Source: Phellopilus nigrolimitatus (taxonomy: Eukaryota; Basidiomycota; Agaricomycetes; Hymenochaetales; Hymenochaetaceae). Taken from it: a stretch of DNA of 64,000 nt. Where the stretch lies: contig JAJOHG010000021.1 in assembly GCA_021029095.1 (NCBI GenBank), positions 310,001-374,000 on the forward strand, written 5' to 3'. A program made the translations under genes and the position numbers. The notes under the pieces are model-generated. The model did no database searches and was not told where the DNA came from. It saw only the letters and a list, made by a program, of their open reading frames with translations. Below are positions 30,157 to 60,165 of the stretch, in pieces; position 1 is the first letter of the stretch, and the number at the start of each line of letters is the position of its first letter.

Positions 30157-31446
30157 TTACCATTCATCCACTACTACCTCCAAACCCAACTCTACTAAGG
30201 CTTCATATTGAGACTTAGTGACATCATCAGGAACAGTGAGTTTCTTCAGTGGTTTAAATCTTGTGTCATGTGATCGAGAATGTACCATATTCTGAAGCTT
30301 TTCAAAGTTGGGGAAGGGATCACTGGAAGAAATTTCTAGCTCCTCAAGATCAGGACAGTAAGGATGGTTTTCACTCCTTGCTGTCAGTGCGTCCAGAACT
30401 GTGTCTGTCATTGGAGCTACTTTCAAATAAACCAAGCTGGGGCATTGCTCCAGGTATGTCAATACACTATTTTCTCTGATTTGGAAGCAGGCCAAAGTGA
30501 GCTTTTTGACTTGTGGTTTTGAGCGGTGCAGAAAGTTCTCAACAATAGTTGAGGTGTTCAATTCAGCCCCATGCACATTGACATACAAGTCAGTCAACAC
30601 AGGTAAGGTAAGCTGTGAAAGCAATGGCCTTATGTCTGAATACTTAAATCCAAAGATATGTAGCTGGGAGACATTGTCAAGCTTCCACTCATGAAGAGGG
30701 GAAAATTGATAAGGCTCTGGCTGTTCAAGATTAGGAGAAACAATAAGTGCCTTTAGGTTTGGTGCTTGCTTAATCCACCACATGATAGATTCCGTAGATG
30801 GGCTGTCAGATAATTCAAGACCAGTGAGTCGTGCATACCCAGAATGTCTACCTTTGGGTTGTAGAGTGAGGGCAGAGTATGTTGCTTTCCAGGCAGGACA
30901 GTTATCTTTTTTCTTGTCACGAACCTCAAGTACACATTTTCTGAGCTGTGGTGCATTGTCAAGGTTGGTCATTGCATCCAAGAGACGCTGAACCACAGAG
31001 AAGTCTTCCACATAAATAACAAGTCTATTCCAGCGGTGCTGACAAGTTAAAAGCAGGTCAACAATATTTCCCATTTCTTGCCAATAGTCTTCATAGGTGC
31101 CTTGGCCAGGCAAGAGCATGTATGAGAACTTGATGGAGATGGAGACATCTCCAGAATGTTTTATCCATCTTCCCAGACAGTTGAGAAACTTTTCTGGACT
31201 AAGTCTGGTTTCACTTTTCTTTGAGGTGTTGTGAAGTTCAATGGCAGTCCATAGGTGAGGCAAGGCATTGGCTATTTCCCTCCAAGTCCTGCAGACCTGA
31301 GTCAGAAGCAGGGGTGCAGCTGAAGCAGATGGTTTGTTATTGTGGCCAGGTCCAGTTTCTAGACAATAACCAAAAATATGAAACAGGATGTCTGGTGGGA
31401 GATTATTCAAATGAGTGGAAGGTGTCCCATTATTCTGAATGGGCAT
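30157..31446 (-). CDS. F-box protein, family copy A
   Basis: Intact single-exon gene of about 429 residues starting MPIQNNGTPSTHLNNL. The F-box-like part is LNNLPPDILFHIFGYCLETGPG, then LLLTQVCRTWREIANALPHLW. An LRR-like part follows (YARLTGLELSDSPSTES, WWIKQAPNLKALIV, LSQLTLPVLTDLYVNV, LVYLKVAPMTDTVLDAL, CPDLEELEISSSDPFPNF). The expected role is substrate recognition in an SCF ubiquitin ligase; the substrate is unknown. It differs from copy C at 49.75-51.04 kb at only a few positions. Base composition is AT-richer than the neighbouring GC-rich sequence. A better upstream start than this ATG was not found. Confidence 0.82.
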   Translation of the reverse strand: MPIQNNGTPSTHLNNLPPDILFHIFGYCLETGPGHNNKPSASAAPLLLTQVCRTWREIANALPHLWTAIELHNTSKKSETRLSPEKFLNCLGRWIKHSGDVSISIKFSYMLLPGQGTYEDYWQEMGNIVDLLLTCQHRWNRLVIYVEDFSVVQRLLDAMTNLDNAPQLRKCVLEVRDKKKDNCPAWKATYSALTLQPKGRHSGYARLTGLELSDSPSTESIMWWIKQAPNLKALIVSPNLEQPEPYQFSPLHEWKLDNVSQLHIFGFKYSDIRPLLSQLTLPVLTDLYVNVHGAELNTSTIVENFLHRSKPQVKKLTLACFQIRENSVLTYLEQCPSLVYLKVAPMTDTVLDALTARSENHPYCPDLEELEISSSDPFPNFEKLQNMVHSRSHDTRFKPLKKLTVPDDVTKSQYEALVELGLEVVVDEW

Positions 31447-33053: not shown

Positions 33054-36000
33054 TCACCGCCGCGGCGCAGGCAGCGAGCTCTGGCGGTACACCATGCCAG
33101 TTCCTGTGCGCGGCCTGCCGGGGACGACAGGAGACGTCGGCGCAGACAGGCGCACGGGCGAGGGCGGCGGCGCCGACGCGCTCGGCGCATGCGGGACCCG
33201 CAGCGCCGGCGTCGACCCATACACCCCGCCGCCGTGCGCGGACGACACCGAGTGCGCCGAGAGCGCCGGCGAGGACGCCGCTGGGGTCAGCGGGCTGCGC
33301 GGGCTCGCGGGGCTCACCGGCGCCGACGCGCCGCCGCCACCGGCGAGCAGCGTCGCGCGCTGCCGGTCGTGCAGGTTGCGGTTGTAGCCCAGGAGCGCGC
33401 CCGTGCGCGGCGGCGGCTGGCCGGGCTTCAGGGGCGACTGCGGCGGCGGCGGCTGCGACTGGGCATGCTGCTGGTGCAGCGCGGGGAGGCGCAGCGGGCG
33501 GGGCGTCGCCGTGCCCGGCGAGCCGGGGATGCGGGACGCCGCGGCTGCGGCTGCGGCGGTGCGCGGAAGGGGCGGCGCCGACGGCGCGTCGCACACCGAA
33601 GCCGGCGCGGACCTGGTCGAGGACGCCATGCGTGGGCGCGGGCGCGCCGCTGCGATCTGGCTCGGCCTCGGTGCGCGCGCGGGGGGCGCGGGCGTGGGCG
33701 TGGGCGTCTTCGTGCGCGCTCTCCGGATCGACGCCGTCAGGAGGCTCGCGCTCGACGCGCCGGCGTCCGCGTCGTTGTCGTTGTCGTCATACAGGTCGTC
33801 GCGCGGCGTCGGCGGGAAGGGCAGGCTCGCGCTGCTCGAGCTCGTCGTGCCGCTCGTCGGCGCGGGCGACATCGAGCGCCGCTCCGGCACGCTGGAGCAC
33901 GCCCCCGCCCCGCCGCCGCCGCCGCCGCGCCGTGCGAGCGCCCCGGGGCCGGGGCCCGCGCGCGTGAGGCTCGCGGAGGAGAGCGATTTTGACAGCGGGT
34001 GCGGGTGCGGCGCGGAGCCGCGCGCGGTGTGGTACGAGCTGAGGCTCGTGGCGGAGTACGACGACGGCGCGCGCGCGGCGGGGGCGCCGCCGCCGGGCGT
34101 CGAGCGCGCGAAGAACTGCGACTGCTGGGAGGCCGCCGCGCGGAAGGACGCGATGCTGTTGTTGCGTGTCGGGGTCGCCGCTTTTGAGAGGCTCGAGAGC
34201 CGGTGCACGAGTGGCGCGGGCGCGTCCTCGTCTTCGCTGTTAGTTTGACGAAATTTGTCATAAAGCAGAAAGTCCGTGAGAGCGAAGCGCGCACCTGTCG
34301 CTCCAGCCCAGCCCCGTCGTCAGCCCAAGGCCTTCCCTTAGCTGCTTCCCGTCGCGATGCCGCTTGCGCCGGCGGTCCGTGTCGCGCTCGTCCTTGAACA
34401 GGCCGGACTTGGTCATGACAGAGCCCATCGACGCTGCCGCACCCAAAACAAAACAAAAAAAGCGCATCAGCGGCCCGAAACCCCCGACAAGAAAATCCCA
34501 GTACGCACCGACCGTAACGTTGCTCGCGACGCTCTCGCGGCCGCCGCCGCCGAGGCCCATCGAGGCGAGCGAGCCGCGCGACGCCGACGACGCCAGCGAG
34601 GCCATGGACGCCGCCGACGCGAGCACCTTCGAGTGCGGCGACAGCACGCCCGCACGCAGCAGGATGTGCGGCAGCGGCGTGTGCAGGTCGATGTCGCTGT
34701 CGCTGTCCTCGCTCCCGTCCGCGTCCGCGTCCGCGTCCTCCCGAAAGAACCCCCTATCGCCGCCGCCGCCGCCGCCGCCGCGGCGCAGCACGCCAAGCTC
34801 GTCGACCGCCTCCGCGTCCAGCAGCGCCGGCGCGAGGTCGTACCCGCCGCGGTGCCGCGCGATCGCGACGCCGTAGTCCGGCTCCTCGTCGCGCAGAATG
34901 CCCCCATACGCGTCCTCCAGCTCGTCCGCCCCGCGCCCCCGCGCCAGTGCCATCCCGCGCTCGCGCCCGCTCGGGAGCGACGGGCGCGCGCGCGCCCCGG
35001 TGCCGGTGCCGGTGCCGGTGCTCCCCCTGTCCCGCACGGAGCTCGAGCGCGAGGGCGTCGTCGCGCGGAGGGACCGCGACGAGCGGCTCGAGCGGGCCGA
35101 GCGCGGGGGGCGCGGCGTCGTGCACATCATCGCCGCAACGTCCGGCGAGGTCGCGCCCCTGCCACGCGCCGCGCCGTCCGTGTCCTCGACCCAGCTCTGC
35201 GTGCGGCTCGACGACGACGCAGACGCAGACGCCGACGCCGACTCGAGCGACGCCGCGCTCGCGACGCTCGTGCGCGGGGGCTTCGCAGGGAGCGGCTTCC
35301 TCCTACTCTGGCTCAGCGTGCGCCCCATCATCCCCCTCCCCACCCCCCTCCCCATCCCCACGCCCACGCCCACGCCCACGCCCGCCGTCTTCCCAAACGC
35401 ACTCGGCGGCGGGGGCGCAGGCGTGCGCGGGAACTGGCCCAACAGGCCCGCACTCACGAGGTCCGGGTCCGCATCGCGCCCCTCTCCGCCCTCCCCGCCG
35501 TCGTCCGTGTCCGACAGCGGCGGCACCGCCGCGAGCGACGCGCGCGGGAGGGGCGCCGGCGAGCGCGCGGCGGCGCGCATGGTGTGCAGCGTCGCGCCCA
35601 TGCTCGAGAGCTCCAGCGGCGACGGCGACATCCCGCCGCCCACGCCCGGGGCCGCGGAGGCGGGCGCGGGCGTGACGGGCGTGACCGCGCGCGCGAGGAG
35701 CGGGTCCGCGCGCATGTCGGGCTCCGCGGTGAGCAGCGCGACGGGCGCGCCGCCGGCGGGCATGCCGAGCGAGGCCTGCGAGGGCCGCGTTTTCAGTTTT
35801 GATTTCGTCGTGTGCTGTTGCGGCTGCTGCTGCTGCTGCTGCTGTGGGCCGAGCGCGGTGTCGAGGATGCCGCTCACGCGCGTGCGCAGGCTCTGCGCGG
35901 CGCTCATCCCGCTCGCGACGCTGAACAGGCTCGCCGTCGGGCTCCGCGGGCCGTCCCTCTCCCTCTCCTTCTCCTTCTCCCTCTCCCCATCCCGTTCGCG

Positions 36001-37200
36001 CACGCCGCCCACACGCCCATCCCCTCCCTCCTCCTCCTCCTCCCTCTGTGACATCAGCGGCGGCGGCGGTGGCGGCGACGCAACCACGCCGGCACCCGTA
36101 CCCGTACCCGCACCCGCGCCCGCGCTCCCCAGCGACGCGCGCTCGCCGCGGCGCGGAATGTCGATGCGCAGCGCGCGCACCCTCCGCTCCCGCGCGCCCG
36201 CGCCCGCGCCTCCGCTCGCGGCCGAGTCCGCGCTCGCGGCGCTGGCCGTGCTCGCCTTGCGCCGCGGCGGCGCACCCGCGCTGCGCGGGAGCGGCGGCAG
36301 CGGCGCGCGCGGCGGCGCGCCGATCGCGTTCCCATTCCCATTCCCGTTCGCGTGTCCGTTCGGCAGACCACTTGCTGCGTTCTGCGCCGCGCCGTCCGGG
36401 GGCGCCGACGCGGGCGCGTGGGCGCCGGGCGAGAGCGGGGAAAAGAGGGGCGGCGGCGCGGGGAACGCGAACGCGGAGACGGAGGCGGGCGCGGAGGTCG
36501 GGCTCGTCGGCGGCGGTGGCGACGCCGGGAAGAAGCCCGCGGGCGGGTCTGCGGCCGAGGGCGGTGGTGCGGCCGCCGCGCTCTGGCTCTGGCTCTGGCC
36601 GTGACCATGGGCGGGGAGCGGCGAGCTCGGCGTGACGTAGATGTAGCCGCCGCCGCCGCCGCCGCGCGGGGGGACCGCCTCCCTCCCCTTCTCCCTGTCT
36701 CCCCTCCCCTTCTCCCTGTCTCGCTCCCTGCTCCCCCGGCGCCGCTCGCGCCACTCCCAGTCCTCGTTCTTATTCCTATTCTCATTCCTGTTCTCGTTCG
36801 CCTTCTCGTTCGCCTTCTCGCCTCCTCCGCTCCTGTGCGTCCGCTGGCCCTGGCTCTGGCTCTGGCTGCGACTCCGGTTCAGATGCGGATTTTGGTTCTG
36901 GTTCTGGTTCTGGTGTGTCTCCTGGCGTGTCTCCTGGCGCGTCTCCTGGAAGCTGCTGCTGCCCACGCTCTGCGCGCCGCCGGGGATGTGGCTCGGCGGC
37001 GCGGGGAACGCGGAGAGCACGTCCTCGCCTGGGCTCGGCGGGGGCGGGGGCAGGTGCATGTGCGGGTGCGTGGTGTGCGGGTGCGGGTGCGAGTGCGTCG
37101 GCGGGTGCGGGTGCGGGGGCGGGGGCGCTGGAGTATACGCCGCGTGCATGGTGAGTGCGTGTGCGAGGGCGGGGGTGGACGCAAGGAACGCGGTGGCCAT
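33054..37200 (-). CDS. Large Pro/Ser/Gly/Arg-rich disordered protein
   Basis: Not recognised. Three exons (34509-37200, 34295-34433, 33054-34236) give 1337 residues with both joins in frame. The protein is almost wholly low-complexity: His/Pro repeats (PHPHPPTHSHPHPH), QET repeats, alternating Gln-Asn, Glu/Arg stretches (REREKEKERERD), a Gln run, Val-Gly repeats and Ser clusters. More ordered islands are GILRDEEPDYGVAIARHRGGYD, the basic exon 2 (FKDERDTDRRRKRHRDGKQLREG) and GYNRNLHDRQRATLL near the C-terminus. A regulatory, signalling or RNA-linked protein is possible but not shown. The conserved splice sites and frame in the right-arm copy support that it is a real gene. The sequence is extremely GC-rich. 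Confidence 0.65.
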
Positions 37201-39800
37201 CGTAGTCTCCTCTCCTGCGCGTGCGCGTCGTGGTGTGGTGTTTGTCGCGTGTGGGTTATGTGCGGGCGTACGGGTGTACGTAAGGCGCGGAGGGGGGCGT
37301 ACGCGGGCGCGCGCGCGGGTGCAGAAGCAAGAAGCAAGAAGCGAGAAGCAAGGAGCAGATTATTGTCGCGTCGCTAGGGAACGAAATGAACGAGCGAGCG
37401 AGCGAGCGCGCGCACACGCTTTTTTTTTCCTTTCGTGGGTATGGGTTGGTGGGGAACCCTGCAGGTCGCAATTTCGCGTGTTGCGAGGGGCGCGGCGCAG
37501 GAGGGGCGGCGGCGGCGGCGGGCGCGCGAAGAGAAGACCCGAGATGAAACGAGAGCGAGAACGAAAACGGAAGAGGGGCGTCAGTCAGTCAAGCTCGTGT
37601 TATTTCCCAAACCGGGAGACGTAGAGAGAAGAAGAATGTGGAAGAATGTAAATCGTGTGTGGCCACAGCGCCACGGCGCCACGACGCCGTGCCGTGTGTG
37701 GCTTCCCGGCGGGATGGTCGCCCAAATGATGGATGGTGGCCAAACGGAGGCCAAGGCGCACCAACCAACCAACCAACCAAAAACACCAGCCATGCGCAAC
37801 GGCAACGCTCAGGGCCGCGCGCGCGCTCAAATGCGCAAATGTAAATAACACACACACACACACACACACATGAACCCGTAACCCAGACCGCACACACACG
37901 CAACGACAACGACAACGACAATAAGGGAAAATCAAGCACGCGAAGGGGAGGAGACTCACGTGAAAAAAAAAAGTTGCGAAGGGAGAAAGAAGACGGGGCG
38001 GCCAATATTGCGATATTGCGATACTGCGATATTTTCGTGCGTTGCTAGCTAGAGAGTCGGCAGGGAGAGGGGGACGTGTTTCAGCGGGAGGGAGACGGCC
38101 GGGCGCGAGGAGACGGAGGGGCTGGAGATAAATGGCGCGGGAGGACGCACCTGAAACCCGAAAACCGAAAACCGAGAACCGCAAACCGAGAACCGAAAGC
38201 GAAAGCGAGTGGCAGCAGCTGGCGACCGTGATATGAGGTGAGGGAGGCGACGTCGGCTGGCGGGAGGGTGGGGGGTGCGGCCGCGCCGTGAAGAGGGTGG
38301 GGATGGTGGGGATGGTGGGGTGGGGATAGCGCAGACGTCGGGCGTCTGGGCGCGGGCAGCGGCGTGCGTGCGTGCGTGCGTGCGTACGTGATCTGAGTCT
38401 CGAGTCTTGACAGCGAGGGGCGAGGGGCGAGGGACGAGTGGTGGGCGCGGGCGCGGGCGTCGCCGTCTTGCCCGTCTCGAAGAGCGAGCGAGGGGCGCGT
38501 ACGAACGAACGCACGTACGTACGTATACAGAAGCGAGCGAGCGAGAGGCCCCAGCGATTTTCGAGATCGCGTCCACACGGAAATAAGCACACACTTCGCG
38601 CTAGCACGCCTCGCTAGTCTCGTCTAGTCGGCCCCTGGCTGGCTGGCTGGCTGGCTGGCTCGCGCTCCCGCGGCGGCGCACTCTTCTTCGACACGCGTAA
38701 AACGTAATGTACAGATGTACAGTCCGTCCGTCCGTCCGTCCGTCCGTCCGTCGGGCGTTCGTGTCGTGTCCTCGTCGTTAGCAGCGTGTGTGTCGCGGGA
38801 TCGAAGAAGAAGAAACAAAAAAGAGTCGCAGTCAAGCTCTGCAAGCAACCGGGTATATGCGGCCCCGGCCGCGGACGAACAGGGTCCGCGAGCGAAGAAG
38901 CGCCACCCCGGGGTCCCGTCCCTTCCTCGTTCCACGCGCTGCGAAAAAGCTTCCTCGCAGGCCCCCCCCTGCCCCCGGGCACTGCCCCAATTAACGCTTA
39001 GGCGCGCGCGGAGGGGCGTGCGATCGGCGCCGGGGTGGCGCCGCTTATTAGCTTTACCCCCCGCGCGTCCAAATAACACAACAGCGGTACAGCAGGAACC
39101 AAAACCATTTCTCTGTGTGTTTGTTTGCATCCGCCCGCGGCGCGCTGGCACGTCGCCAGCGCGCGCGCGGGAGCACGTACACGTACACGCACGCAACGAC
39201 GACGACGACGACGACAGGCAGGCGCTTCTGCGCCACCTCGGGCTCGACCAGCCCCGTTTTGGGTAGCCTGCTAGCACGAGCACGTCACCCCGCCGCGGAC
39301 CTCCAATCCCCAAACCCAATCCTCAAACAAACAAACGCGCGCGATCGTTCTCTTTTTTCTTTCCTTTTTTTCTCTCTGTTTCCCTTTCTTCTTACCGTTT
39401 TCGGCCGCGCTGCTGCTCGCTTCACGTGAAGCGCGCGTAACGGTTAACCACTTATTATTCCCGTAATTTACTGAATTAATTTATTTCGCGCTTCTCCCCA
39501 GCCCGCCCCTGCCCGGCGCACGAACTCTTTTTCTTTCGCGAAGCAAAGCAAAGCCCGGGCGTTTTCAACCCAAAGACAAAGACAAAGTTCCAGCGCGCCA
39601 CAACGAAACAAAAAAAAAAGGCACAGGCAAAGGCAAAGGCAAAGGCAAAGGCAAAGGCAAAGCAAAGCAAAGCAAGACGTTCAGCCCAAAGACAAAGTCC
39701 AGCGCGCGCGCCACAACAAAAAGCAAAAACAAATCGATGCCCGCACCGCCAGACCCTGCGCTATCTCATCCAGCCCAATCTCAATCACCGTATCAGGCGC
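37201..39800. repeat. Microsatellite-rich upstream region of the Pro-rich gene
   Basis: Contains many short tandem repeats: gagc (37.39 kb), ccaa (37.76 kb), ca (37.85-37.87 kb), caacga (37.90 kb), cgatatt (38.01 kb), accgaaa-type (38.15-38.20 kb), tgcg (38.37 kb), ggct (38.63-38.66 kb), ccgt (38.72-38.75 kb), acg/gac (39.19 kb) and a hexamer caaagg (39.62-39.66 kb). The first kilobase probably holds the promoter and leader of the minus-strand gene. The Arg- and Pro-rich frames here are compositional shadows. Confidence 0.7.
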
Positions 39801-39849
39801 TAGCTCATCTCATCGCCGGCTCTATCTCATAACGACCTTCCGCGCAGAA

Positions 39850-42060
39850 AACGCCTCGTCACTCGCCATCGCCCGCCCGCCCGCCGATCGCACTTATCCC
39901 ATCCATCACCCCCTCTTTATCTGTCTTTCCGCCTGCCCGCCTGCCCGCCCGCCCGCGCCTCCGACGCGTCCCAATTTCCTCTTTCTTCTTCTCTTTCCGG
40001 CAGACGACCCGTACCGTCACGTCGCGTCGCGTCGCGCGTCCTGGATCGGGCACCGCGCAGACCCCGTGCGCCCGTGCGCCCGTGCTCCGCCGCGCCCGGG
40101 CACCCCGCGCCCGTGCTCCGCCAGCGACGTCTCCGCCTCCGCCTCCCGCCCGCCCCCCGCCGTCCTGGGAAGAAGAGCAACGAACAGAAGACCCCGCGCG
40201 CACCGCACTGCGCTGCGTTCCCGGCCCGCTCTCGCTCGCGCGTTGTTTCTTTTCGTCTCGCCAAGCTGTCCTCGTCGCGCGCGCATGTCTGTCCTTCCTT
40301 CCCGAGAGCAACCCCCGGCCACCGTAACCACGCACGCCCGGCCGCGCTCAATCAGCAAAAAGCAGCCAAACACCCGCTCCGTCCCTATAGCTAGAACGCG
40401 TCGTACCCTTCTCAGCCGCGGCCGGTTTCTGTCTCTCCCTGCGCGGAGCTCCTCCGCTGTGCGCTGCTCTCTTGTCTCTGTCTCTGTGTCTCTGTCTTTT
40501 TGTCTCGCGGCTCTTGCGGCTCTCTCGGCTCTCTCGGCTCTCTGGCATCTGAGTCTGCCCCGCGCGCACGCACGCGCATCCGCCGCCGCCGCCGCCGCAC
40601 CCGAACGAAAACGAAAAAAAAAAAAAAACGCAGAACAAAAAAAAAAAAAACGCACACCGTCCCCGGAAAGCGCGCACGCGCACGTGCACGCAGATATGCA
40701 TTAACCCGCACGCTCGCTATTCCGTCCTCGGTTCCATTTTTACTTCGCTTTTCTTGACCGCGCTTCGCGTCTGTTCCTTTTCTCTCTTTTTTTTTTGTTT
40801 CTCGAGCGCGAGCGCACGCGCGCGCGCCGGTCTTTTGTAACTACAAGCACCAGAGCCCGCGCTCCCTCCCTCTCATTGCACGCGCGCGTGTGCTCCGTCC
40901 GCACGCAACACAGAACGAACGCCGGCGCGGAGGGGGGAGGACCGCGTCCCCCTCCCAGCGTGCGCGCCGATCCTTACCCCAACCCACGAAACGTACATGC
41001 AACTTTCTTCGAGTCGCACCCTCTCGCCGTCCCACGCCAGCACCCCCTCTTTCTCAAAAAAAAAAAAGAAATGCACCTCCGCGTGTCGATCCCTGCAACA
41101 AACAAACAAACAAACCAGCACCTCTCCGCCGTCCATCCCCGCGTGCTATCCACACCGCACCGCACCCCCCACCCCCTCGCTTATCCTCCGCCCCGCGCCG
41201 CGCGGAGCCCAGGGCCCGTCTGACCCCATACGTATACGGCAGGCCGCGCCTTCTCAGGGCGCCAACAAAAAAGCCACCCGGCTGATCCTCGGCCTTCCCA
41301 GGTCCCCAGGTCCGCACGGCTCCACGACGAACAGACGCGTTAATCTGCGTTTGCGCGCCCCAGCAGCGCACACACGCACCGTAACCATCCCCTACTACCT
41401 TACGTCTTTACACTTCCCAGACCTTTCTTTGTGCTCCCACACTCGTATACATTACCCGAAACGTTTCCTCAATCTGTTACCGTCTTCCACGCGACAACAA
41501 CGAAGCAGGTGCGCGCGCGCGAATTCGAAGACAGCCGCAAGGAACCAAGAAACCAAGCCCCCCAGCTCGGCGCGCCCGCCTCCGCTGGGTGGGAAAGGCC
41601 CGAGTCTAATCGCGCCTTCTCCCACCCAAGCGCTGTATTTTAACTTTGCTGTGCACGTCTCGTCTTATCTCCATGCCATCACGAAGCTTTGCGCAATTTT
41701 AACATAAATGAACTGCAGTGCAATACAATACAGTACAATACGCCCCCCATCGTGCTGCAGCCCTCTGTGTCCTTTTCGGACGCCCGTTCAGTCGGGGCCG
41801 GCAATGAGTCGGACGCGCACTTTGTCCCTGCGCGCATGCACACTCGAATGCCACTAGTAAATTGATAATTCGGCTCTCGCAGCTCCGTTGTGCCAGTGCC
41901 ATGCTTCCTTCTCTGCTATTGACGGCACCCGACGTCTGCTCGCGTAGATAAAGGAGAGAAGATGAGAGTGAGCCGGGCAAGCTTTAGTTAATTCAATGCA
42001 CTGCGCTGCACATATATCTATCTCCAGCCTGGAGGTCCCCAACACAAGCAGCCCTAAAGC
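39850..42060 (+). repeat. GC-rich dispersed repeat, long copy upstream of F-box B
   Basis: Similar in order and sequence to 54.80-56.15 kb. Shared landmarks are ctgtctttccgcc, cgcgcggagcccagg, ccttctcagg, atcctcggccttcccag, cgtccctgcgcgca and agataaaggagaga. In both places an F-box gene follows about 0.5 kb further on. Parts (gtcaagctgtcctcgg type) also match the shorter units at 45.4 and 51.95 kb. No reverse transcriptase, transposase or clear long terminal repeat was seen, so its class is unknown. Confidence 0.6.
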
Positions 42061-42595: not shown

Positions 42596-43862
42596 ATGCC
42601 CACTCATTTAAATGAACTCCCAGCAGAGGTCCTATCTCAAATTTTTGTTTCCTGTCTAGGAACTGGTCCTGGCCGCAAGAACAAACCATCTGATTCAGTT
42701 GCACCCCTGAATCTAACTCTGGTCTCCAAAACTTGGAGTAAAATTGCCAATGACGCACCTCACCTGTGGACCAGCATTGATCTTAATAATGTCCCAAAGA
42801 AAGATGAAAGTCAACTTAGTCCAGAAACATTCCTTGACCATCTGGGAAGATGGATGAAAAAATTTGGAAATGTCCCCATCTCCATCAGGCTCTTATACAA
42901 ACACTTTCCTGAGTATAGCACCTATGAAGAGTATTGCAAAGAGATGAAAGACATTGTTGACCTGCTTCTAACTTGTCAGCACCGCTGGCATACACTGGAG
43001 ATTGCTGTGCAAGACTTCTCTGTGGTTCAGGGTCTATTGGATGCAATGGCCAATCTTGACAATGCACCACGGCTCAGGGAATTTAAGCTTCATGTTGATG
43101 ACAAGAAAAATGATAAATATCCAGCCTCGAAAGCAGGCCACTACCCTCACTCTGCATCCCAAAGGTGAACATTCTGGGTATGCACGGCTCACTGGTCTTG
43201 AATTATCTGGCAGCCCATCTACAGAGTCAGTTATGTGGTGGATTAAACGAGCACAAAACCTAAAGGCACTCTATGTTTGTATTTATCCCAAACACCCAGA
43301 ACATCATCAACATCCCCCTCCTCATGTGTGGGAACTTGGCAGCCTCTCTAAGCTAGATGTTTTTGCATTAGATTTGTCAGACTTAAGGCCATTGTTTTCA
43401 AAGCTTACTTTTCCTGCATTGACTGACTTAAGAGTTGGTGTGGCTGGGGATGAATCAAATAGCCCAGCTTTTGTTGAGGATCTTCTGTGCCGCACAAATA
43501 TGCAAGGCCTCAAAAAGCTCACTTTCTGCAATTTTTCAATCAGTGAAGCTCATATAAAGCTATGCTTGAAGCAAACTCCCAGTCTGGTCTATTTGAAATT
43601 AGTCCCAATGACAGGCATCATTCTGAATGCACTGACAGCAAGGAGTGGAAAGCATCCTTATTGTCCCAACCTTGAGACCCTAGAAATCTCTTCTAATAAT
43701 CACTTCTCTGACTTTGAAAGGCTTCAGAATATGGTACTTTCACGATTACATGACACAAGATTCAAACAAATGAAAAAACTCACTGTTCCTGATGATGTCA
43801 CTGAGTCTCAATGCCAAGCCCCAGTAAAGTTGGGTTTGGAGGTAGCAGTGGATAAATTGTAA
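42596..43862 (+). pseudogene. F-box protein, family copy B, frameshifted
   Basis: Begins MPTHLNELPAEVLSQIFVSCLGTGPG, with LTLVSKTWSKIANDAPHLW completing the F-box-like segment. The first part stays open to about 43168. Near 43133, after PASKA, two bases fewer than in copies A and C shift the frame. Downstream in the other frame the LRR-like part is well kept: YARLTGLELSGSPSTESVMWW, LVYLKLVPMTGIILNAL, CPNLETLEISSNNHF, LTVPDDVTESQ, with a stop at 43860. No intron borders would repair it convincingly. It is more diverged than A and C are from each other. Its 3' flank matches 29.88-30.16 kb. Confidence 0.75.
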
Positions 43863-49751: not shown

Positions 49752-51041
49752 ATGCCCATTCAGAATAATGGGACACCTTCCACTCATTTGAATAATCTCC
49801 CACCAGACATCCTGTTTCATATTTTTGGTTATTGTCTAGAAACTGGACCTGGCCACATTAACAAACCATCTGCTTCAGCTGCACCCCTGCTTCTGACTCA
49901 GGTCTGCAGGACTTGGAGGGAAATAGCCAATGCCTTGCCTCACCTATGGACTGCCATTGAACTTCACAACACCTCAAAGAAAAGTGAAACCAGACTTAGT
50001 CCAGAAACATTTCTCAACTGTCTGGGAAGATGGATAAAACATTCTGGAGATGTCCCCATCTCCATCAAGTTCTCATACATGCTCTTGCCTGGCCAAGGCA
50101 CCTATGAAGACTATTGCAAAGAAATGGGATTTATTGTTGACCTGCTTCTAACTTGTCAGAACCGCTGGAATATACTGGATATCTATGTGGAAGACTTCTC
50201 TGTGGTTCAGCGTCTCTTGGATGCAATGACCAACCTTGACAATGCACCACAGCTCAGAAAATGTGTACTTGAGGTTCGTGACAAGAAAAAAGATAACTGT
50301 CCTGCCTGGAAAGCAACATACTCTGCCCTCACTCTACAACCCAAAGGTAGACATTCTGGGTATGCACGACTCACTGGTCTTGAATTATCTGACAGCCCAT
50401 CTACGGAATCTATCATGTGGTGGATTAAGCAAGCACCAAACCTAAAGGCACTTATTGTTTCTCCTAATCTTGAACAGCCAGAGCCTTATCAACTTTCCCC
50501 TCTTCATGAGTGGAAGCTTGACAATGTCTCTCAGCTACATATCTTTGGATTTAAATATTCAGACATAAGGCCATTGCTTTCACAGCTTACCTTACCTGTG
50601 TTGACTGACTTGTATGTCAATGTGCATGGGGCTGAATTGAACACCTCAACTATTGTTGAGAACTTTCTGCACCGCTCAAAACCACAAGTCAAAAAGCTCA
50701 CTTTGGCCTGCTTCCAAATCAGAGAAAATAGTGTATTGACATACCTGGAGCAATGCCCCAGCTTGGTTTATTTGAAAGTAGCTCCAATGACAGACACAGT
50801 TCTGGACGCACTGACAGCAAGGAGTGAAAACCATCCTTACTGTCCTGATCTTGAGGAGCTAGAAATTTCTTCCAGTGATCCCTTCCCCAACTTTGAAAAG
50901 CTTCAGAATATGGTACATTCTCGATCACATGACACAAGATTTAAACCACTGAAGAAACTCACTGTTCCTGATGATGTCACTGAGTCTCAATACAAAGCCC
51001 TAATAGAGTTGGGTTTGGATGTGGTAGTGGATGAATGGTAA
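49752..51041 (+). CDS. F-box protein, family copy C
   Basis: Intact single-exon gene of about 429 residues, nearly identical to copy A. Visible differences include GHINKPS for GHNNKPS, DYCKEMGFIVDLLLTCQNRWNILDIYV for DYWQEMGNIVDLLLTCQHRWNRLVIYV, and KALIELGLDVVVDEW for EALVELGLEVVVDEW at the C-terminus. In the first block copy C is closer to copy B, which would fit gene conversion. F-box-like and LRR-like parts are as in copy A. The gene has kept its frame after duplication, so both copies may be active. Confidence 0.82.
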   Translation: MPIQNNGTPSTHLNNLPPDILFHIFGYCLETGPGHINKPSASAAPLLLTQVCRTWREIANALPHLWTAIELHNTSKKSETRLSPETFLNCLGRWIKHSGDVPISIKFSYMLLPGQGTYEDYCKEMGFIVDLLLTCQNRWNILDIYVEDFSVVQRLLDAMTNLDNAPQLRKCVLEVRDKKKDNCPAWKATYSALTLQPKGRHSGYARLTGLELSDSPSTESIMWWIKQAPNLKALIVSPNLEQPEPYQLSPLHEWKLDNVSQLHIFGFKYSDIRPLLSQLTLPVLTDLYVNVHGAELNTSTIVENFLHRSKPQVKKLTLACFQIRENSVLTYLEQCPSLVYLKVAPMTDTVLDALTARSENHPYCPDLEELEISSSDPFPNFEKLQNMVHSRSHDTRFKPLKKLTVPDDVTESQYKALIELGLDVVVDEW

Positions 51042-56594: not shown

Positions 56595-57665
56595 TCACTG
56601 CTAACAAGGTCCATTCCCTCTCACTTACCTTTGTCCCCATCTTCCAAGACACATACCTGCTTCACACTAAAATCCTTCAAGACACATACTTGCTTACATC
56701 ATAGCCTCTCAGCATAATCCAATGAATGGCTTGCTTCAAAGCTCCTCAGGAGTTACTATCCCATCAGAGACAATGGCTCAAATCTTTGTTGAATGTCTAG
56801 AACCTGGTCCCACCAGACCATCTCCCTCAACTGCACCCCTGAATCTGACCTGGGTCTGTAAGGATTGGAGGAGACTTGCCAATCACACAGCACGCCACCT
56901 ATGGACTGACTTGGAACTTAACAATTATCCAATGAATGGTGGAACTAGACTTAAACCAGAAAAATTTGCTGACATTCTAAGAGAATGGATAGAGAGATCT
57001 GGAAATGTCCCTATCTCCATCAAGCTTGCATTCTATTATGACCACACAAAAATGGACCTCAGAACATACATTGATCAGATGTCAAAAATTTTAGACCTGC
57101 TGGTAGGATGTCAGAAGCGCTGGCGTAGACTGCAGATTTATGTACGTGGAGTTGGTTTTGTAAAGCATCTACTGCGTGCCATGCAAGACCTTGACAAATC
57201 ACCACATCTTCAATTATTTGTTCTAGATGTCATTAACAGGTTTGATCCCATTTATAATCCGGGTAATGACTACCTTCTCTGGAAAGCAGGACACACCTCC
57301 CTGAGCCTACATTAGAGCATAGCACGAGTAGAACCTCGGGTTGACCCGGACCTGTTGGCGGGTCACCCGTGGCAAAAAATCCTAGACCTGGACCCGGTTT
57401 GACCTGGACCCGTTGGGACACGGATCTGCGGGTCACCAAATTCCCACGGTTCCAGGTCACCGAGGTCACGGGTTGCTCACAGCTCCTTGCGGGTCTTCCT
57501 CGCCAACTCCGCGCACGGCCTCCAGAGGTAGCCCACCCGCGTCCTCGTGTCCTCGCCATCGCATGCCGCTCCTGGTCCCAGCAGTGCACATGCACCCTAA
57601 ACTGCTAATAGACGCGGATCAACTCGCTGAAGCGGGAGCGTTCTTCGTCACCGATGGACATGTAA

Positions 57666-59040
57666 ATGTCCTCCGAGGACAAGGAAGACGGACAGATCAG
57701 CAAACTCGAACAGCAAGAGGAGCGCGAGTCGCGCCTCCTAAACAAGGCGAAGCTCACTCTGGAAGACCTTGAGAAGTGCCGACTTTCATGCAACAAGCTT
57801 TTCAAGTACGCATTGATGCCGTGGTTCGAGGCTTTCGTCAAAGGTAACTTGCTCGACATTCTGTCGTCCCTCGAACCTTTCGACGATTGGTGCACTGCAA
57901 AGGTTCATGGGTGCGCTACCTTATTGGCGCAGACCAAGGCCAGCCCGTGTATCGAATTTGCGAGATCGCAAGTACATGTTGCATCCCCGCCTGTGTCTTG
58001 TTTCTAGTGTTCTGAGCGCGCGCCTCCCAAAGACCTCGGCGCAAACACAGCTAAGCCCTATAAGATTGAAAACGAGTACTTCGACACCAGCCTCGAGCTG
58101 CGGCACGGCGCGGCTATCAAAGTGTTCCCGATGGACAAGGTTTCCAATGCGGCGTTCACAGAGGTAGGATCATCGACCTTTTGTTCCGATGCCTGGTTGC
58201 TGGACAAACACTTCGGTACAGGACGAGTGGCGCCGGTTCAAAGCAACGTGTGAACATGAGAAAGTCAAGCTCCCTGCGAGGCGCGCGATCGAGAAGAAGC
58301 TGCAGCAGTTCGACAAGCTGACGAGCCATTCATTAACGGAGGTACGTGCTTGCCCCTCTCCCCCAGAGAGCTGCTGCTGGAAACGCGCACACAGGCGGAC
58401 GTCACTGCGATCCTCGCGCGCAAGGCGGAGCTGAACCGCAGCCTGCCGAAGTCGCGCACGACCGCAACGAAGGCTGAGCGCGCGGAGCTCGTGCGCATGC
58501 GCGCGCTCGCGCAGATGCGCCGCGACTTCGTGGAGAACGCCGCGCTCGAAGTGCAGCTCGCCGCGCTCGACGCGTGGCCGGGCGTGGGCGTGCCTGCGCG
58601 CTCCGAGAAGGAGGACACCCTCGCGAAGGTGAACAAGCGCAACCGGTAGGCGAACCGCGACGCCGTGCGCCGCGCGGAGGTGGCCGAGGCGGAGCGCAGG
58701 AAGAAGGCGCGTCTGGCGCGCACGGCCGCTGCGAACGGCTTGCGGGCAGGCACGCCGGGCGTTTTCAAGTGCGTCTGTTTCTGTATCTGTTTTTTTCGCC
58801 ACACCCATCAACTGACTTTGCGCATCGCGTATCTTCACAGGGACTCGCCGAACAGGACGCCGCTGCTCGGCGCGTCGCTTGCACTCGGGGACGGCATGCG
58901 CTCCGTGTCGCCCCACCCCCGCAGAAGGGCGTGCTCGGGAACCGGGCGTTCGAGAATATCGTCGCGAGCTCCGTCGAAGTGCTGCTTTCGGTGGGCGGAC
59001 GCGGACGGGGCTTGCGAGCTCATGCCTTTCCTTTTTTGCT
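57666..59040 (+). pseudogene. Captured fragment of RTF1 (Plus3 domain)
   Basis: RTF1 is a Paf1-complex subunit acting in transcription elongation. With introns removed the fragment reads LTLEDLEKCRLSCNKLFKY and MPWFEAFVKG-SWVRYLIG, then QPVYRICEIA, KPYKIENEYFDTSLELRHGA, IKVFPMDKVSNAAFTE and DEWRRFKATCEHEKVKLPAR, the core of the Plus3 domain, followed by the helical region with KLTSHSLTE and ADVTAILARKAELNRSLP. At least four introns with GT-AG borders are kept (for example 57843-57900, 57970-58026, 58164-58220, 58341-58389 approximately), so genomic DNA was captured. The N-terminal acidic part is missing. A TAG at 58647 interrupts NKRNR-ANRDAVRRAE, and the C-terminus is incomplete. Confidence 0.88.
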
Positions 59041-59220
59041 GTGGACCTGGGAGCATACATGTGTAGATTACGAAGCAGATTAACCATACATATTCTGAAC
59101 ATACATGCAATATACATATAAATGTACCTTGGCCACTGTAAGCTTGAAAATCTGTGTAAATTACCCACAGGTTTTGGAAAAACACAAATTCTGAACCCGG
59201 ACCCACGAAAACCTGTTTCC

Positions 59221-59250
59221 CACGGATCACCCGTGCACGGGTGATCCGTG
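59221..59250. repeat. Perfect 30-bp palindrome in the right hAT subterminus
   Basis: cacggatcacccgtg is followed directly by its exact reverse complement. Similar cacccg/cgggtg motifs occur near the left end, so the site may be part of transposase-binding subterminal repeats. Confidence 0.85.
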
Positions 59251-60165
59251 AATACGGGTCTGCAGTCCGAGTCGGGTCGTAGATACCTGCGGGTTCCAGG
59301 GAGTCGTGCTAGGCTCTAGCCTACATCCTAAGGGTGGATACTCTGGGTATGCACGTGTCACAGACATTAAGCTGCTGTCCTGCCCATCTACAGAAGATAT
59401 TCTACAGTGGATTAGGAGATCACCAAATCTAAAGACACTTGAAATTACTACCGACTTTAAAGGCCCAGTAATTCAACAAAATCTCCCTCAAGTTTCCTAT
59501 CCACTTAACAAACTCTCTAAACTGGATGTCTTTGGTCCCACATCAGAAGACATCTCACCAGACATTGGGCCATTGCTTAAACGCCTTACCCTGCCTGCAT
59601 TGACTGACTTAAAGGTGGAGATGGATGTGTATGATCCTAATAATAACTGGGATTATGTTGAGGATCTTCTGAAGCGTTCAAGATCACAAGCCCTGAAAAG
59701 GTTTGCATTGATCTATACACCAACCAGTGAAGATAGAATCCTCAGATGCCTGGAGCATTCTCCTAGACTTGTCTATTTGAAAGTAGCTCCAATGACAGAT
59801 GGAATTCTGGATGCACTCACAGCAAGAGGAGGAAGGTATCCTTACTGTCCTGAGCTTGTGCAGCTTGAAATTTCTGGCAGTATGAATGACTTTAGCTTTG
59901 AAAGGCTTAAGACTATGGTATCCTCTCGTGGCACTGGCGCCAGACAATTGACAAAACTCATGGTTCCTTATGACGCCACTGATGAAAAATTGAGAGACCT
60001 ACAAAGGTTGGGTTTGGAAGTACAGCGTGAGAGCTCAGGTGATGATGACTGATGAGGATAGTTGATAGAGATGAGAGGAGATGCTACTACTTAAAGAATA
60101 GATGTTGTAACAGCCATAAATGATATTTAATACTTAATGCATGCTCTGAGGATGCTTAGCCGATA

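Follow-up and report, generated by a model that had tools for sequence, protein, structure and literature searches.

An RTF1 fragment with its introns inside a non-autonomous hAT-type element of Phellopilus nigrolimitatus, and the gene-carrying family of that element

The window considered here, a 64,000-nucleotide stretch of Phellopilus nigrolimitatus DNA, contains at 57313-59318 a 2,006-bp non-autonomous hAT-type element, and the coordinates given for it in a preliminary description proved exact. A perfect 8-bp target-site duplication (TSD), GCCTACAT, occupies 57305-57312 on the left and 59319-59326 on the right, and inside it lie 15-bp terminal inverted repeats (TIRs), TAGAGCATAGCACGA at 57313-57327 on the forward strand and TCGTGCTAGGCTCTA at 59304-59318 on the reverse strand, which pair at 14 of 15 positions. 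The left hAT end region (57313-57502, forward strand) carries subterminal repeats and is common to elements with other cargo, about 174-190 bp of it being shared with the elements designated C146, C611b, C9, and C625; the right end region (59083-59318, forward strand) is defined by matches in the fungus's own genome. Thirteen-mers of the CGGGTCACCCGTG type are found at 57359, 59223, and 59238, and the subterminal repeat GACCTGGACCCG at 57385 and 57401; the right end contains, at 59221-59250, a palindrome of 15+15 bp without mismatch. The target duplication, the hAT-style ends, and the repeated subterminal motifs that had been described from the sequence are thus all present. A search of the own genome (G000; 56.4 Mb in 635 contigs) with both ends, as had been recommended, recovered related copies throughout, with at least 40 matches for the left 168 bp (all 40 of those scored, out of 154 candidates) and at least 40 for the right 238 bp (40 scored, out of 144 candidates), and this recurrence of both ends indicates that they are more than a chance resemblance.

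The element interrupts a host open reading frame on the forward strand, the 5' part of which lies at 56671-57312 (start counted from stop to stop) and the 3' part at 59327-60052 (from the open reading frame list and the rejoined frame); removal of the element and one TSD copy in silico restores a single frame of 455 codons from stop to stop. A label of F-box/LRR-like for this frame had been given by eye, and Pfam returned no match. Weak relatives of the frame occur in the window at 30587-30892, 42850-43487, and 50306-50611 (66-83%, short pieces), forming a local gene family that is present on contig C630 too. Elsewhere in the window, 33900-40650 is GC-rich with many short tandem repeats, the GC content being 74% at 34001-36000.

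When the joined flanks of the element were compared with the own genome, C630:61473-62170 was recovered as one continuous match, with 99% identity over 698 of 700 bases. This stretch has a single GCCTACAT and no element, and is an empty insertion site; with one copy of the 8-bp repeat there, the refuting outcome that had been named beforehand for these repeats did not occur. The relatives of the interrupted frame agree in order and relative orientation between contigs C124 and C630. The 99% identity and these collinear neighbours make it probable that C630 represents the other haplotype, in which case one of the two carries the insertion.

Inward of the left end, a short fragment of unknown origin (57503-57594, forward strand), common to the copies on C446, C611, C290, and C301, is followed at 57595-59082 by genomic DNA derived from RTF1, which by alignment to the native gene covers, on the forward strand, everything from the last part of intron 4 to the first part of the 3' UTR. 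Exon 5 (57612-57843) has an in-frame stop at 57663-57665; exons 6 (57903-57971), 7 (58033-58163, with part of the Plus3 domain above the Pfam cut-off), and 8 (58222-58341) follow, and then exon 9 (58395-58768), with an in-frame stop at 58647-58649, and a shortened exon 10 (58841-58980) that lacks the native stop codon, all on the forward strand. Introns 5-9 are kept whole, and all five are GT..AG. Pfam assigns 58044-58163 to Plus-3 with 29.4 bits against a cut-off of 27, and the gene model of a sister copy on C301 gives E=2e-29 for Plus-3 and E=1.5e-19 against solved RTF1 structures, which bears out the earlier recognition of an RTF1 Plus3 fragment. This sister copy is 99% identical to the window element and stands at a different site with its own TSD, CAACAGAT, indicating that the element has become multicopy by transposition. 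About 570 bp found in the C446 copy are missing from the window copy, which by this comparison arose by shortening of a longer RTF1 element; the longer form also has the upstream fragment of unknown origin.

The interior of the element matches 13 places in the genome, namely 11 element copies (the window copy included) and the native RTF1 on C101 and C141. The native gene on C101 encodes 519 residues, has nine introns in its gene model, and is identical to the public protein, and the intron positions of the window cargo are those of native RTF1; the proposed alignment of the interior to the host gene thus revealed a separate, intact gene, and the capture of genomic DNA with introns, claimed from the sequence alone, is upheld. 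No TIRs were found within 1.5 kb on either side of native RTF1 on its two contigs, so that the arrangement feared in the preliminary description, with the same ends at the normal RTF1 locus, does not occur there. The occurrence of RTF1 at 13 places would by itself be compatible with a plain duplication of the gene between repeats, and a retrocopy or Helitron capture might also be considered. However, the introns are retained, the TIRs and 8-bp TSDs are found repeatedly, a single target copy stands at the empty site, and other genes lie between the same ends, and we therefore reject these explanations as having next to no probability; Helitrons, moreover, have neither TIRs nor TSDs.

In all 11 RTF1 element copies the native 3' end point is the same to within one base, and the unrooted tree of the 13 RTF1 sequences separates the element copies from the native pair with a support of 100; because of this common end point and this split, one capture event at the 3' side of the RTF1 cargo is the simplest reading. 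The left RTF1 junctions lie, in native numbering, in intron 1 (C446, C611, and C290), exon 2 (C9 and C244), exon 3 (C24 and C249), exon 4 (C625), and intron 4 (window and C301), and the copy at C124:1-1583 is interrupted by the contig end. Upstream of RTF1, the copies C24:704041-708543 and C249:6118-10620 carry a fragment of an MCM1-like MADS-box gene (E=5e-14; Pfam SRF-TF below the cut-off), and in these two elements the right end was found and the left end was not. In C9:66312-70840 the 5' fragment preceding RTF1 may be derived from coatomer beta' (a weak match, E=0.019), in which case the 5' cargo varies among the classes of RTF1 element. It should be noted that the public gene models P0004, P0005, P0007, P0015, and P0022 correspond to RTF1 transposon copies (C9, C249, C301, C290, and C611, respectively), and caution is therefore needed with at least five public P. 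nigrolimitatus gene models, annotated as plus-3-domain or hypothetical proteins, that represent transposon cargo.

These public models on five element copies might suggest that some of the copies are working genes and that a truncated Plus3 protein is propagated along with the element. Changes private to each lineage were examined by comparing the number of nonsynonymous changes with an expectation matched for base and CpG context. Native RTF1 shows 2 nonsynonymous among 18 private changes where 11.9 are expected (P=0.0002), and the window/C301 lineage shows 15 of 22 (14.9 expected), from which the window copy looks as if it were evolving like neutral sequence. The corresponding values are 19 of 32 for C9/C244 (21.2 expected), 29 of 51 for the C446 group (33.3 expected, P=0.12), 29 of 45 for C625 (29.8 expected), and 53 of 71 for C124:1-1583 (46.7 expected). 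C24/C249, with 8 of 24 (14.7 expected, P=0.004), is the sole element lineage with a signal that hints at constraint, but six element lineages were tested and the remaining five are not significant, and stops or frameshifts are present in all 11 element RTF1 copies when native splice sites are used, C24/C249 among them with one in-frame stop and one frameshift. We accordingly regard working RTF1 genes among the element copies as very unlikely. Constraint in several element lineages had been considered from a codon-position contrast against a majority ancestor (non-CpG P values of 0.10 for window/C301, 8e-4 for C24, 0.023 for C9, 2e-4 for C446, 0.013 for C625, and 0.079 for C124a), and the stricter test upheld C24/C249 only; no selection is claimed from the contrast. 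A bolder reading of C24/C249, in which the hAT family of this basidiomycete would be a continuing exon-shuffling engine, its elements opened, filled with whichever host genes happen to be available, and re-mobilised, and in which the MCM1-RTF1 chimaera would be kept by selection as a new Plus3 protein, is also unlikely.

RTF1 does lie inside the element, as had been proposed, but it is one cargo among many. A search for the TIR TAGAGCNTAGCACGA with at most one mismatch gave 60 sites, against 14 for the reversed control, and these combine into 19 inverted pairs with spacings of 2.0-8.1 kb; the 20th paired-end element, C625:203400-205557, has a right TIR that has diverged further. Both flanks were read in 19 of the 20 (the one left out is C290:62295-70399), and in these the TIRs are 15 bp with 1-3 mismatches and the TSDs are 8 bp, 18 of them perfect and one with a single mismatch. 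The elements on C9 and C244 are probably alleles, as they have a common TSD. All 20 paired-end elements contain host-gene DNA, frequently from two or three genes each. RTF1 is carried by eight of the 20 and septin by three; C7, C123, C135, and C190 combine an unnamed host gene (C90/C83) with SMC2 and a Sec23/24-type piece, C146 has RPS19 and the C90/C83 gene, C154 an HMG-box, C478 CHD1 and DJ-1, C179 HSP70 and the C90/C83 gene, and C290:62295-70399 a Sec23/24-type piece (read from 67600 onward). Besides RTF1, at least eight host genes are thus represented between the ends of the same family. Pfam matches above the curated cut-offs were obtained for septin (8e-28), S19e (2e-9), the Sec23/24 trunk (1e-11), HMG (2e-6), the CHD1 HTH (6e-16), DJ-1 (2e-12), and HSP70 (6e-12), whereas two of the ten cargo pieces submitted had no Pfam family; the SMC2 cargo matches solved SMC2-type proteins (8e-19), and the name SEC24 is based on the Pfam Sec23/Sec24 trunk. 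A by-eye designation of the C90/C83 gene as NLI/FCP1-phosphatase-like found no Pfam or PDB match, and the gene is therefore called unnamed. Native donors were located for RTF1, septin, SMC2, CHD1, DJ-1, and the C90/C83 gene, with best pieces 91-95% identical.

For a sister TIR, TAGGGCATACCACGA, 173 sites were counted, its control giving 8, and among the 100 sites listed there are pairs at 300-480 bp (MITE-like) and at 1.8-2.9 kb. Two 2.6-kb elements with sister TIRs, C13:412295-414938 and C68:639237-641862, have 8-bp TSDs (ATTCGCGC and GCGCAAAC) and one fragment in common with a septin-carrying element. C434:196300-200720 holds an element of 4.26 kb that has sister TIRs and the TSD CTACCAAC, and within which a nested element with the TSD GCGTCTCT carries a piece of elongation factor G (Pfam EFG_III 3.5e-25).

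The manner of capture may be approached by comparing elements that share cargo. The right cargo junction is identical in C7 and C146; in C146 the C90/C83 gene is uninterrupted over native positions 1316-1592, whereas C7 has native 1313-1415, then 636 native bases of SMC2, and then 1526-1592. C7 therefore looks like the product of a break within an existing element, in which 110 bp were lost and the gap was filled from SMC2. The C7-type product is found at five places, its junctions having been read in C7 alone. In C478, CHD1 is present as three pieces with the native order changed and one inverted, and at most 3 bases are common at the joins; the apparent microhomology at joins, counted by eye, is 0-3 bases. 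Gap filling and template switching both fit the patterns in C7/C146 and C478, which do not distinguish the two here. Capture may instead have followed the model put forward for multicopy animal Pack-TIRs (PMC8277862), transposition having merely spread the products, and the three reordered pieces that C478 took from one CHD1 locus, with one inversion and such short joins, speak for it; the local loss of 110 bp and its filling in C7 relative to C146 are, however, explained at least as simply by gap repair, and we consider this alternative possible but rather doubtful. Uptake of host genes during DNA break repair is, from these junctions, likely.

As to mobility, no transposase was found in the open reading frames of the window element or by a Pfam hAT search of it, and none was found in the own genome within an element bearing exactly window-type TIRs. 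At C423:5721-12312, however, sister-type TIRs accompany pieces of a hAT transposase, and a second place of equal length, C423:12693-19284, has sister-type TIRs as well. The hAT dimerisation domain in C423 scores 40.8 bits across one predicted splice against a cut-off of 21.4, and 20.4 bits, below that cut-off, when unspliced. The ends of this element are 82% and 81% alike to those of the window element over about 160 bp, in the opposite orientation; its TIR is of the sister type (13 of 15), and its own TSD is imperfect (6 of 8). The search for an autonomous hAT suggested at the outset has thus yielded a transposase-bearing relative, but one with related rather than identical ends. A hAT of the C423 type is the likely kind of helper, and we treat the C423 element as a candidate. 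Seven places with Pfam hAT dimerisation domains were rejected as helpers, as no matching ends lie within 1.5 kb on each side, and C434:196381-200639 (4.26 kb), considered as an autonomous element, contains the nested EF-G-carrying element instead.

Overall, breaks inside older elements would be repaired with unrelated genomic DNA, copied in by way of very short homologies, as junction patterns suggest, and the transposase of a related hAT is predicted to move the composite elements in trans by cut and paste; the window copy would be a neutral by-product that disrupts its target reading frame rather than a working RTF1. We are accordingly quite confident of a non-autonomous hAT-type element with RTF1 exons 5-10 and five introns, likely built by gap repair and predicted to be moved by a related hAT.

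A basidiomycete thereby joins the hosts of Pack-type gene shuffling, here with introns retained and several genes in one element; gene shuffling of this kind is best documented in plants, and the fungal cases found were ascomycete hATs with one gene taken up as a transcript. Because a single genome provides the empty site, the donors, a before-and-after capture pair, and transposase-bearing relatives, gene uptake becomes directly testable in a fungus. In the open-licence PMC literature, no intron-keeping multi-gene Pack family was found for a basidiomycete among the papers listed, "Pack-hAT" occurs for plants and animals only, and "Pack-type" together with basidiomycetes gave nothing; subscription journals are mostly outside this literature, which makes it a weak negative. 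The expectation that a fungal case would be unusual holds for a basidiomycete with intron-bearing, multi-gene cargo, but the capture of histone H3 as a transcript by hATs is a precedent in the ascomycetes Pyrenophora (PMC3538342) and Pseudocercospora (PMC6710886).

Pack-hAT elements are known from maize (PMC8903248), and the plant Pack-hAT and Pack-TYPE elements are likewise non-autonomous, with the TIR and TSD of their superfamily and host coding DNA that often comes from more than one locus; their hosts are plants, maize in the case of Pack-hAT, whereas the host here is a basidiomycete. The histone H3 hATs of Dothideomycetes resemble the present family in that a fungal hAT amplified a housekeeping gene, with an 8-bp TSD in P. 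fijiensis, but they involve one transcript-captured gene and retain transposase parts (PMC3538342 and PMC6710886), whereas the present elements lack a transposase and carry genomic DNA, introns included, from many genes, and most copies are not heavily mutated. Animal Pack-TIRs (PMC8277862) are likewise TIR elements with host DNA taken up by capture; microhomology is found at their joins, gap filling and template switching have been modelled for them, and some have spread by transposition. They belong to other element families and hosts and are in many cases single-copy, and a bias toward nearby donors is reported for them.
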